Shown here: piece after piece, positions 254 through 9,744 of the stretch
Layout: each line of letters starts with the position of its first letter
Numbering within the stretch: position 1 is the first letter of the stretch
DNA from: Halalkalibacter suaedae
GTDB taxonomy: Bacteria > Bacillota > Bacilli > Bacillales > Bacillaceae_D
NCBI RefSeq assembly: GCF_017939705.1
Contig: NZ_JAGKSQ010000002.1
Location: forward strand, 124,001-188,000
Length of the DNA stretch: 64,000 nt
Direction of reading: 5' to 3'
Program-made: the position numbers and the translations under genes
The notes under the pieces: model-generated
What the model was told of the DNA's origin: nothing
Databases searched by the model: none
The model's input: the letters and a program-made list of their open reading frames with translations, nothing else

Positions 254-427
254 ATGGAAAATCATTCGAAATCAACATTCTGGGAAATTTCAAACGATGA
301 TTTGCTAGGGATTTATGAAAAAGCGATTTGTGTAGAAGAGATTAGTCCTCACTTTATTGATTTGCTTGTTGATGAACTAGAAAGAAGAAAGATAGCTATC
401 CAAGTTAGCAAAAGCTCAATGCCCTGA
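254..427 (+). CDS. sda: Sda-like sporulation checkpoint peptide
   Basis: This 57-residue protein has the core of the Sda family: ISNDDLLGIYEKA, then a spacer, then FIDLLVDELERRKI, matching the LSDELLIESYxKA...FIELIENEIKRR pattern of B. subtilis Sda. Sda folds as a helical hairpin and binds the dimerisation/phosphotransfer domain of sporulation histidine kinases, blocking phosphate flow to Spo0A after replication stress. The ATG at 254 is chosen because AGGAGG at 238-243 sits 10 bases upstream; an in-frame TTG at 209 has no ribosome site. It carries about ten residues beyond the usual 46, mostly at the N-terminus. It stands alone between its own promoter and a terminator that overlaps the stop codon. 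Confidence 0.75.
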   Translation: MENHSKSTFWEISNDDLLGIYEKAICVEEISPHFIDLLVDELERRKIAIQVSKSSMP

Positions 428-6362: not shown

Positions 6363-6674
6363 TTAGTGGGGTGAGTGGACACGAATCGAGCTGAAATTAT
6401 TAGATTGATAGAACACGGCTAGTAGAAAAAAGGGCAATATACTGTTTTTTTCGATAAAGGAAGTAGGAGCTATCTGATACGTTCGCTCGCTACTAACACC
6501 GAATATTGACCAAGATTCAATCAAGGCCCATTTGTCATTGTTTGAATTAGGGTGAGGTGTAGGTATTGTTTCTAGGACCCTTTCATCTGTGATCATTGTT
6601 TGTTGATCAATGCTCTGTTCTGTCAAAAAACTAAAGGATGAAAGTATAATCAACAAAGATATGATGAGTTTCAA
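6363..6674 (-). CDS. Small exported or membrane-anchored hypothetical protein
   Basis: The 103-residue frame starts at a TTG (complement of 6672-6674) with AAGGAA about 4 bases upstream. It has an N-terminal hydrophobic segment (KLIISLLIILSSFSFL) that could be a signal peptide or anchor, a polar middle, and a second hydrophobic patch (ILPFFLLAVFY) near the C-terminus. No lipobox or known motif is visible. It lies upstream of, and in line with, the 37-residue membrane gene, 26 bases away. The unusual start and lack of homology make it tentative. Confidence 0.4.
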   Translation of the reverse strand: MKLIISLLIILSSFSFLTEQSIDQQTMITDERVLETIPTPHPNSNNDKWALIESWSIFGVSSERTYQIAPTSFIEKNSILPFFLLAVFYQSNNFSSIRVHSPH

Positions 6675-6813: not shown

Positions 6814-6820
6814 TGTCGAA
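6814..6820 (+). promoter_or_regulatory. Possible Spo0A box upstream of the receptor/kinase operon
   Basis: TGTCGAA at 6814-6820 matches the 7-base 0A-box core exactly and lies 86 bases upstream of the receptor gene start. Seven-base matches occur by chance a few percent of the time in an interval this size on two strands, so this is only a candidate; it is of interest because the operon encodes a sporulation-type kinase. Confidence 0.3.
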
Positions 6821-6905
6821 AGATGTAGAGTAATCTCTAATTATAGTAGCAAAATATTAATTTATTAGGTATGATTAGACGAGAATAATAAGAGGAGGAA
6901 TTACT

Positions 6906-7907
6906 TTGCAACAATCGAAACAACTTAGGATCATTATATGGATTACAGGGATTGTTGTAACTGTCTTTTTAATCATTCTTTTCTTTAGTGTTAGCGGTAT
7001 TATGAAAGATGCAAAGGTAACTTCAGAGATTGAAGAAACAAATGTTGTTATTATTACGTCTGATGTTATTGCTGATCAAAGCTGGGGGAGCTTAGCATAT
7101 AAAGGCCAACTGAAGATACAAGAACAATTTCCGATAGCTGTCGAGTTATTCAGTGAAATTGATACCACAAACAAAACACAATTAGAAAAGATTGTTGACG
7201 ATGCGGTTAATTCTGGAACAGATGTTATTATAGGACATGGACGTGAATTTTCAGATTTATTTATTGAAATTGCTCCAAGTTACCAAGAAGTTCATTTTGT
7301 CACTGTTCATGGTTGGTTAAAACATTCCAATCAAGCTGTATATACTTTTGATCATGCCGAACTTGAGTATTTTGCTTCACTTGCAGCGAGTTTAAAAACA
7401 AAAACAAACAAAATTGGAATCATTGATGTTCACGAAAGTAACGAAAATCCGGAATTCGAACAAGCTTTAAAGTACTATTCAGAGGAATCGGAAATTTATT
7501 ATCGTTATGTGGAAGATAGAGACGATAGTCAAGGGGCTTTAAAGCAATTGGATGAGTTAATTGAATTAGGTGTAGATGTCGTATATCCAAAAGGCAATGC
7601 CTTTAATCGTGATGTCATTGATGCAGCAAAAAAAGAAGGCATTTATGTTATTGGTTATGTCGATGATCAATCTTATATGGCTCCGAATTATGTATTGACA
7701 AGTGTACTGAACGATGTAACGGAGATATATGTATCGATTATTGAAGATTATTTCAGTGAAGAGGGAATTCCTTCAGGCAAGGTGATGCTAACTGAGGAAG
7801 ATGGCGTCTACATGCTCGCACCGTTTGGTCCAATGTTTTCAGATTCAGAAGTGGAATTCATTGAAAATGAAATACTGAAGTTTGAAAAGGGCGAATTACG
7901 TTTTTAA
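6906..7907 (+). CDS. Membrane-anchored BMP/Med-type ligand-binding protein
   Basis: A 333-residue protein with one N-terminal transmembrane segment (residues about 8-28) and an extracytoplasmic BMP (PnrA/Med-like periplasmic-binding) domain: VVIITSDVIADQSWGSLAYKG at the domain start, GTDVIIGHG, VHFVTVHG, KTNKIGIIDVHES, GVDVVYPKGNAF and VIGYVDDQSYMAPNYVLTS. There is no lipobox, so it is tethered by the uncleaved helix, as in B. subtilis Med. TTG 6906 follows AGAGGAGG. The kinase gene starts 22 bases downstream and no ABC transporter genes are nearby, so it probably senses a ligand (nucleoside-like, judging by the family) rather than feeding an importer. Inference: it is the sensory partner of the kinase. 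Confidence 0.75.
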   Translation: MQQSKQLRIIIWITGIVVTVFLIILFFSVSGIMKDAKVTSEIEETNVVIITSDVIADQSWGSLAYKGQLKIQEQFPIAVELFSEIDTTNKTQLEKIVDDAVNSGTDVIIGHGREFSDLFIEIAPSYQEVHFVTVHGWLKHSNQAVYTFDHAELEYFASLAASLKTKTNKIGIIDVHESNENPEFEQALKYYSEESEIYYRYVEDRDDSQGALKQLDELIELGVDVVYPKGNAFNRDVIDAAKKEGIYVIGYVDDQSYMAPNYVLTSVLNDVTEIYVSIIEDYFSEEGIPSGKVMLTEEDGVYMLAPFGPMFSDSEVEFIENEILKFEKGELRF

Positions 7908-7929
7908 AAAAGAAAGGGGAAGGTCTGGA

Positions 7930-9723
7930 GTGATTTCATTTCTTAAGCAATTGTCTATTCGAAGTAAAATCCTTTCCGTCCTTCTCCTTATTACTCTTTT
8001 ATTGAGTGGTTTTTCTCTCATCCTTGTCCAATCAATTAGTGATGTTAATCAAGTTAGTCTAACAATAAGAGATGAACATGTCCCTTCAATTGTTTGGTTA
8101 ACCCATACAGAAACTGAGTTAATAGAAAAAGAGCAATTTGTTCGAAATGGAATTGTAAGCGATTTTTGTTGTCAATTTATTGATGGGTATAATGAGCTCG
8201 AGGAACAAATCGATATATCGGTTCCTTCGAGTTTAAATGCGATTACACGCGAAGTTGAACTTTTGGATTTCTTTATAAATAATGAAGTACAAGGGTTTCT
8301 TAGCCTTGGAGATATTGAAGCAGCGAAACGAATCCTAGATAAATATTACTTGCCTAGATTATTGTCTCTTAAAGAAGACCTTAATAACGAAAAGCAACTC
8401 GCATATACCTCTATTCAGGAAAACACCCATGAATTTACGAATATTATTGAAAGCTCATTATCTTTACTCGTGATCTTAACGATTGGTGCAATAATCTTAT
8501 CTATTTATTTTTCTTATCGAACTAGTGCGGGATTAACATTGCCAATTGAAAATCTTATTCACAAAGTAAACCGAATAGCAAAAGGCGAATATGGCCTAAC
8601 CATTTCTGACTCAGAAAAGCAGTTTGAGCTTAAGCAGCTTACGACGTCAATTAATCAAATGTCTCTTCGTTTAAAGGAATCCTTTGAGACAATCTTAATT
8701 GACAAAACCTATCGTGAACAAATCCTAAATTCACTCCCTGTTGGTATTATAACGATTGATGATAAGACGGATGAATTATTCTTAAATCATTCGGCTAAAT
8801 ACTTATTGCATGGGTCAGAGGAACAAATACGATCGATTGATACGATACCTGTCCCTTGTGTCAATAAAGATTTCTGGTCCATTCTTTCCTCAAAGAAAAT
8901 TTGTGAAAATGTCAGGGTTACCTATCAATCTGATCTCGAAAACCATAAACTACTAGTTTCGCAGTCTAAGCTACGTGATCAACATAATGAAGTTATTGGT
9001 AGAACCTTTTATTTTGTTGATATTACAGAAACTGAAAAGTTAGAAAATCGGATACACCAAACTGAAAAGTTGGCATTGGTAGGAGAAATGGCTGCTGGTG
9101 CTGCTCACGAAATAAGAAATCCGTTAGCGGTCATTCAAGGGTTTCTTATGCTAATGAATCAAAATATTGATTCTGATCAGCAGGAGATGTACCGCATGCC
9201 GTTATTAATGAAGGAATTGGAGCGAATTAATTTCATTATTGAGGAAATGCTTCTTCTCGCCAAACCTGGTGCACCATTGCTGAAATTGACGTATTTGGAA
9301 GACGTTATGAAGGATATTCTTCCATTAATACGGGAATCCTCAGAAGGGGAAAATGTTAATATCACTGTTGATCTAAAAAGGGTTCCTCTTTTACTTGATG
9401 CTAAGCAAATGAAACAGGTGCTATATAATCTTGTACGAAATAGTAGTGAATCAATGAATTTTCAAGGTGATATTCAGATTTATGCTAAAGTAGGGACTGA
9501 TTATGAAATTTATATTGAGGACCAAGGAAGCGGAATTTCAGCTGACAAACAAGCAACGATATTTGAACCATTTTCAACAACGAAGGAATCAGGGACTGGC
9601 TTAGGTTTAACGATCGTAAAGCGAATTATAGAAAACCATAATGGTCAGATAGACCTAATATCAAGCTCGAATAAAGGAACTGTATTTTGTATTAAATTAC
9701 CGATCGCAAACGAAAAAAAGTGA
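7930..9723 (+). CDS. Orphan sporulation-type sensor histidine kinase
   Basis: 597 residues from a GTG at 7930, preceded by AAAGGGGAAGG; an in-frame ATG at 7882 overlaps the upstream gene and lacks a ribosome site. Order: TM1 (about 10-30), an extracytoplasmic helical region of about 145 residues, TM2 (about 175-197), HAMP, a PAS-like domain (about 265-370), the H-box AAHEIRNPLAVIQGF with His about 394, then N box LYNLVRNSSESM, G1 DQGSGI, F FEPFSTTK and G2 GTGLGLTIV. The H-box resembles KinA/KinE-type kinases that feed Spo0F. No response regulator is adjacent. It is cotranscribed with the BMP-type receptor and ends at a strong terminator. Confidence 0.88.
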   Translation: MISFLKQLSIRSKILSVLLLITLLLSGFSLILVQSISDVNQVSLTIRDEHVPSIVWLTHTETELIEKEQFVRNGIVSDFCCQFIDGYNELEEQIDISVPSSLNAITREVELLDFFINNEVQGFLSLGDIEAAKRILDKYYLPRLLSLKEDLNNEKQLAYTSIQENTHEFTNIIESSLSLLVILTIGAIILSIYFSYRTSAGLTLPIENLIHKVNRIAKGEYGLTISDSEKQFELKQLTTSINQMSLRLKESFETILIDKTYREQILNSLPVGIITIDDKTDELFLNHSAKYLLHGSEEQIRSIDTIPVPCVNKDFWSILSSKKICENVRVTYQSDLENHKLLVSQSKLRDQHNEVIGRTFYFVDITETEKLENRIHQTEKLALVGEMAAGAAHEIRNPLAVIQGFLMLMNQNIDSDQQEMYRMPLLMKELERINFIIEEMLLLAKPGAPLLKLTYLEDVMKDILPLIRESSEGENVNITVDLKRVPLLLDAKQMKQVLYNLVRNSSESMNFQGDIQIYAKVGTDYEIYIEDQGSGISADKQATIFEPFSTTKESGTGLGLTIVKRIIENHNGQIDLISSSNKGTVFCIKLPIANEKK

Positions 9724-9744
9724 GTATTTCCTCACTTTTTTTCG
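9711..9744. terminator. Bidirectional terminator, kinase / MmcB-like gene
   Basis: CGAAAAAAAGTGAG and CTCACTTTTTTTCG form a perfect stem around a 6-base loop. It overlaps the 3' ends of both convergent genes. Confidence 0.9.

Follow-up and report, generated by a model that had tools for sequence, protein, structure and literature searches.

Several bacterial sensory systems join a protein of binding-protein fold that has no transporter of its own to a histidine kinase with an extracytoplasmic domain, encoded by the adjoining gene. These include XylFII-LytS, TorT-TorS and CuaD-CuaS, which have response regulators and control uptake or respiration genes. TorS-type and chemoreceptor-type sensors are helical, and binding proteins engage some transducers with helical sensors, both chemoreceptors and kinases (PMC6321045; PMC10384115). 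The sporulation kinases KinA-E are orphans of the HisKA class with a G-F-x-x-L interface; KinB is membrane-bound, and its operon also holds the gene for a helper protein, kapB (PMC5733473). Here we describe a two-gene locus of Halalkalibacter suaedae that resembles the first group in its layout and helical kinase sensor, and KinA-E, KinB above all, in its orphan status, HisKA class, interface and membrane-bound kinase. Unlike XylFII-LytS, TorT-TorS and CuaD-CuaS, the pair has no linked response regulator, and it combines a sporulation-class kinase with a predicted 0A-box promoter and a BMP/Med-family receptor that carries an uncleaved helix.

The locus lies within a 64,000-nucleotide stretch of contig NZ_JAGKSQ010000002.1, hereafter the window. 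The first ORF (6906..7907, forward strand; TTG start, strong RBS aagaggagga, 333 aa) was assigned by Pfam (Bmp PF02608, E 2.4e-43) and an AlphaFold model as a Med-like, membrane-tethered BMP receptor. The second (7930..9723, forward strand; GTG start, 597 aa) was assigned by Pfam, alignment and tree as an orphan histidine kinase with HAMP, PAS, HisKA and HATPase_c domains. The two are separated by 22 nt on the same strand, with no transporter or response regulator genes nearby, the closest response regulator in the genome being 103 kb away; the preliminary description had likewise given a 22-base gap in one operon without an ABC transporter or response regulator. Hydropathy shows one transmembrane segment in the BMP protein, at its N terminus, and two in the kinase. 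The former (about residues 9-30; 6930..6995, forward strand) falls in a modelled helix of residues 2-40, has no conserved lipobox in the orthologues, and precedes the extracytoplasmic BMP domain (residues 45-327; 7038..7886, forward strand) delimited by PF02608 and the model, so that the uncleaved N-terminal helix and BMP domain read earlier from the letters are both borne out. An external helical sensor, HAMP and PAS had also been proposed for the kinase, and Pfam, hydropathy and AlphaFold agree: an all-helical sensor of about 137 residues (residues 36-172; 8035..8445, forward strand) lies between its two transmembrane helices and is modelled as a helical bundle (pLDDT 87.5). The phospho-acceptor His393, in AAHEIRNPLAVIQGF, is encoded at 9106..9108 (forward strand; PF00512 and alignment). 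An A-tract/GTGAG...CTCAC/T-tract hairpin at 9713..9742 (no strand assigned), read from the sequence, is the likely terminator of the two-gene unit; this palindrome was missed by a promoter/terminator consensus scan that performed no better than on shuffles. Divergent from the operon is a 103-aa ORF at window 6363-6674 (reverse strand) with a signal-peptide-like start.

Across the 84,980 species genomes scanned, the same kinase was found directly downstream of the BMP orthologue at 60 of 60 loci, comprising 59 intact pairs and one with a frameshifted BMP gene (median gap 22 nt). Among 40 relatives, a set that overlaps the scan, the kinase sensor domain occurred in 15 genomes and the BMP orthologue adjoined it in all 15; relatives without the sensor were also without the BMP orthologue. 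The pair is thus carried by many spore formers from soil and soda lakes, in many genera of Bacillaceae, among them Halalkalibacter, Metabacillus, Priestia, Rossellomorea, Evansella, Domibacillus, Salipaludibacillus, Gracilibacillus, Aquibacillus, Halalkalibacterium and Alkalicoccus. Both Priestia megaterium and the alkaliphile Halalkalibacterium halodurans carry the pair, and none of the 60 loci recovered from the 84,980 genomes belongs to the B. subtilis group. The flanks vary between genomes and, where inspected, hold unrelated housekeeping genes. When stretches of up to 13 kb around the 60 loci were inspected, only three contained a response regulator, and in none of these did it adjoin the pair. 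The preliminary description had named in advance, as evidence against its reading, a response regulator after the kinase in homologous operons or a pair that is not conserved elsewhere; the former was absent from all 60 loci checked, and all 60 keep the pair. Based on the conserved pair, the differing flanks and the lack of an adjoining response regulator, we conclude that the functional unit, as delimited by comparative genomics, is exactly two genes. Broken genes were also seen: the BMP gene of Bacillus sp. JCM 19034 is split by frameshifts, and the kinase gene is split in one genome of the same genus (G012), each representing either a draft error or decay.

Among solved structures, the one nearest to the BMP receptor in both sequence and fold is 2hqb, the 'transcriptional activator of comK gene' of B. 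halodurans, namely its Med protein; it is also the best PDB match for the receptor model (pLDDT 92.9). The earlier assignment to the BMP (nucleoside-binding) family holds, with Med as the nearest characterised relative that was overlooked there. Both Med and the pair's receptor are orphan surface BMP proteins, but Med is a lipoprotein encoded upstream of comZ, whereas the pair's receptor has an uncleaved helix and is tied to a kinase gene. No cysteine occurs at a conserved lipobox position in the 60 BMP orthologues, and the true Med of the same genome has one; from this alignment we conclude that the receptor is tethered by its helix and not by lipid. The H. suaedae genome holds four BMP genes. 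One (L065) is the true med, encoding a lipoprotein and followed by comZ and fabH, so that lipobox and downstream comZ, both absent at the pair, are both present there. Another (L066), judged by gene position and length, seems to head an ABC transporter operon, and a third (L064) encodes an orphan lipoprotein and is followed by a chemoreceptor gene. Because a separate true med exists among the four, comparison of the sequences identifies the pair's receptor as a Med paralogue rather than Med. It could be argued that the receptor acts alone in competence, as a regulator resembling Med, and is merely co-transcribed with a sporulation kinase: no characterised protein is closer to it than Med, which is found at the cell surface and regulates comK (PMC12892991). 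We regard this as very improbable given the linkage at 60 of 60 loci amid varied surroundings, the med-comZ locus elsewhere in the same genome, and the correlation of BMP divergence with that of the kinase sensor domain described below.

The receptor shares its fold and Pfam family with the nucleoside-binding proteins PnrA and BmpD but has changed pocket residues and no transporter. With the nucleoside contacts of BmpD as the pocket reference (PMC7093131), one stacking Phe is kept as an aromatic, W60 (60/60), the second is replaced by Arg205 (57/60), Asn28 by Gly61 (60/60) and Phe76/Arg77 by Arg113/Glu114, while the first Asp of GVDxDQ becomes a hydrophobic Leu, Ile or Val in the pair's receptors. 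The features that mark PnrA and BmpD, two stacking Phe and the ribose and base contacts, are thus not found in the receptor in this alignment. That the receptor is an ordinary nucleoside sensor, binding purine nucleosides like PnrA and BmpD, would accord with its family, its fold and the retained W60; we nevertheless rate it as improbable in view of Arg205, Gly61, Arg113/Glu114 and the hydrophobic GVDxDQ position, and of the canonical residues being kept instead in BMP proteins linked to MCP or GGDEF partners. The nucleosides proposed as ligand in the preliminary description are not supported: the rebuilt pocket makes an ordinary nucleoside unlikely, and a charged ligand is our guess.

These MCP- and GGDEF-linked proteins represent a second association of BMP proteins with transducers. 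In H. suaedae, the orphan BMP lipoprotein gene mentioned above and the transmembrane sensor gene next to it occupy L064:4995-7630 on contig C22 (about 390 kb; relatives L221-L234). All 15 orthologues of this BMP protein (14 genomes, 8 genera) are linked to a membrane protein, the sensor of which is shared and the output of which is an MCP in 12 and a GGDEF diguanylate cyclase in 3. By sequence, this BMP type keeps the canonical nucleoside-pocket residues, and its pairs may be nucleoside chemoreceptors. The repeated pairing of orphan BMP proteins with transducers of differing outputs independently supports a receptor role in the kinase pair. Homology between the kinase sensor and the MCP/GGDEF sensors was considered, but hhalign covered only 34 columns at 79% probability, and common descent is not claimed.

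Foldseek with the kinase sensor model returned weak matches, none with E below 0.001. A second structural look listed Tsr and NarQ together with ligand domains of chemoreceptors (Z 10-13), a range possible for any helical bundle. Distances between BMP proteins correlate with those between sensor domains once PAS and catalytic core are removed (partial r 0.24, permutation p 0.004; 0.09 for BMP versus PAS), a co-divergence that is supportive of coupling, though modest and not decisive. In the alignment of 60 orthologues, 36 sensors contain exactly the adjacent pair C80-C81 (8167..8172, forward strand) and the other 24 contain no cysteine, an all-or-none pattern that is the pattern of a disulfide.

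Orphan status together with a PAS domain is the signature of candidate Spo0 kinases (Davidson et al., PMC6136694), and the kinase described here is an orphan gene with a PAS domain. Among the 38 HisKA matches in its genome, kinases with catalytic-core scores near this kinase are all orphans except one, which lies 3.2 kb from a response regulator, and kinases paired with response regulators score below the orphans. The tree contained a single named sporulation kinase, KinB 3d36 of Geobacillus, with published specificity residues used for the other members of KinA-E. A split with SH-aLRT 99 holds KinB and nearly every orphan kinase that the genome encodes, in keeping with the orphan sporulation-type kinase first proposed; within this class, the pair's kinase and its orthologues form a deep clade of their own on a long early branch. 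NCBIfam models, KinD included, matched far below their cut-offs, and the kinase was therefore left without a specific name. In KinA-E the specificity residues read T-[AVSG]-G-F-Q-[LI], and G-F at +11/+12 in Bacillaceae kinases indicates Spo0F as target, clostridial direct Spo0A kinases carrying other residues (PMC6136694). This kinase has AVGFML, and its clade mostly [AT]VGF[ST]L; compared with TVGFQL of KinB, V, G, F and L are equal (4/6). The Gln at +14 typical of verified Spo0F kinases occurs in none of the 60 orthologues, and +7 is mostly Ala. For the H-box of the Spo0F-feeding type suggested previously the picture is mixed, with only four of six residues KinB-like and the invariant Gln absent. 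In comparison to KinA-E and KinB, the pair's kinase stands apart by its clade, the replaced Gln, a helper of binding-protein fold and a promoter with predicted Spo0A boxes. We consider Spo0F, on these residues, the most likely partner, though not a proven one.

0A boxes have been reported for spo0F and kinC as well (PMC12090719). Upstream of the BMP-kinase operon, a perfect box, TGTCGAA (6814..6820, forward strand), forms a predicted Spo0A site 92 nt from the BMP start. A second, degenerate box, TGTAGAG (6824..6830), follows 10 bp downstream in the same orientation, and a putative sigma-A -10 hexamer, TATGAT, is located at 6870..6875 (forward strand) without a -35 hexamer. A lone 7-mer in one genome was not taken as evidence; conservation across operons was. 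In the 250 nt that precede the BMP start, on either strand, perfect TGTCGAA is present in 43 of 59 operons and missing from 16, compared with 3.8% of random segments and 10.8% (22/203) of the regions upstream of other genes at the same loci (binomial p 6e-29, the orthologues not being independent). It is the top enriched 7-mer upstream of the operons (16-fold) and occurs in 15 of 22 genus-level groups. In most of the 59 operons the box sits at about -84 to -109 relative to the BMP start. In 23 of the 42 operons that were aligned, a heptamer agreeing with TGTCGAA in 5/7 positions or more follows at exactly +10, with weaker repeats at +20 and +30, and a TATAAT-like hexamer usually lies 53-57 bp downstream of the box with no recognisable -35 hexamer. 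The frequency of the box relative to other genes (11%) and the spacing to TATAAT make direct control by Spo0A likely, and the 0A box and feedback loop suggested earlier as a possibility are strongly supported by this sequence conservation. Combined with the linkage at 60 of 60 loci, the enrichment settles that the pair reflects more than chance.

The arrangement of 0A boxes upstream of a -10 hexamer is that expected of Spo0A-activated sigma-A promoters such as spoIIG. The boxes are neutral as to whether the loop is positive or negative, and kinases of this class can act as phosphatases too. The pair might then be a direct Spo0A kinase or phosphatase, or might act as a brake, draining phosphate from the relay under negative feedback driven by Spo0A. 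This seems to us highly doubtful, as the G-F at +11/+12 points to Spo0F in Bacillaceae while clostridial direct Spo0A kinases have other residues (PMC6136694), and a box upstream of -10 without a -35 suits activation.

In H. suaedae, spo0F adjoins fbaA, and Spo0A is also present. Spo0F was found at strict E in 11 of 14 pair-bearing genomes; Gracilibacillus, Aquibacillus and Saliterribacillus (L195, L196, L197, L200, L202) have a strongly diverged Spo0F, about 35-43% identical to that of H. suaedae and still beside fbaA. Spo0A was found in all six pair-bearing genomes checked. Since both proteins are common in this family anyway, their co-occurrence with the pair is by itself weak evidence. SpoIVA was found in 19 of 22 pair-bearing genomes and not in a Salisediminibacterium, a MAG and an Alkalicoccus (L120, L122, L123), which have probably lost sporulation. 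These three keep the pair, Spo0F and Spo0A, and the perfect 0A box is missing there. Their retention of the pair fits a phosphorelay input with outputs wider than spores and not a pure sporulation device; sporulation as the sole output, the earlier expectation, is accordingly not supported. The same genomes bear on a further alternative, in which receptor and kinase work as proposed but the target is another orphan receiver, with Spo0A only timing expression. The clade-specific residues (Ser/Thr/Asn for Gln, a changed +10 residue), the long early branch of the clade and persistence without spoIVA would suit such a receiver. We consider it unlikely, if deserving of attention, as the specificity residues equal those of KinB at 4/6, none of the genomes links a receiver gene to the pair, and the spoIVA-less genomes retain Spo0F too. 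The Sda homologue noticed in the window (287-409) is real, with 29.7 bits against a cut-off of 22.6, and weak, being the lowest-scoring of four Sda-family matches in the genome.

A Spo0A-controlled sensor of Bacillaceae, composed of a solute-binding protein and a kinase and feeding the Spo0 phosphorelay, is the best explanation of these data and one that we hold to be reasonably probable. It builds on what the sequences display: the parts, the obligatory linkage, the orphan status, the kinase class, the 0A boxes and their spacing, and the presence of Spo0F and Spo0A. In this proposal, the BMP receptor would be held outside the membrane by its uncleaved N-terminal helix and would dock on the extracytoplasmic, four-helix-bundle-like domain of the kinase. 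Ligand binding would alter the bundle, in whichever direction, and HAMP and PAS would pass the change to the HisKA core. The kinase, having no regulator of its own, would most likely phosphorylate Spo0F, and the signal would enter the Spo0F-Spo0B-Spo0A phosphorelay. Spo0A~P on the tandem 0A boxes would activate the operon, producing a positive feedback loop. The ligand-sensing phosphorelay input of the preliminary description thus gains from the linkage, the kinase class and the 0A box, and loses its nucleoside ligand, its certain Spo0F target and its sporulation-only output.

No described BMP-kinase or BMP-chemoreceptor pair was found in the open literature, of which our coverage is incomplete. 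The comparative evidence indicates that the receptor-kinase unit is real, conserved and apparently undescribed, that its control by Spo0A is likely direct, and that a route into the phosphorelay is probable. A broader view is more tentative, and we offer it as a possibility: BMP proteins may form a general class of tethered receptors that serve helical membrane transducers with swappable outputs (histidine kinase, chemoreceptor, diguanylate cyclase), of which the kinase version, itself under direct feedback from Spo0A, would report a specific extracellular ligand to the Spo0 phosphorelay, and Med may use such a partner. If the main reading is right, relatives of the competence protein Med would be tied to sensor partners, suggesting BMP proteins as modular receptors. 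What sporulation kinases sense is a long-standing question, KinA for instance having no confirmed signal or ligand to date (PMC5552956). The pair is a good candidate for bringing an outside signal into the sporulation decision, and a receptor evolutionarily bound to a sporulation-class kinase provides a concrete place to seek a ligand.
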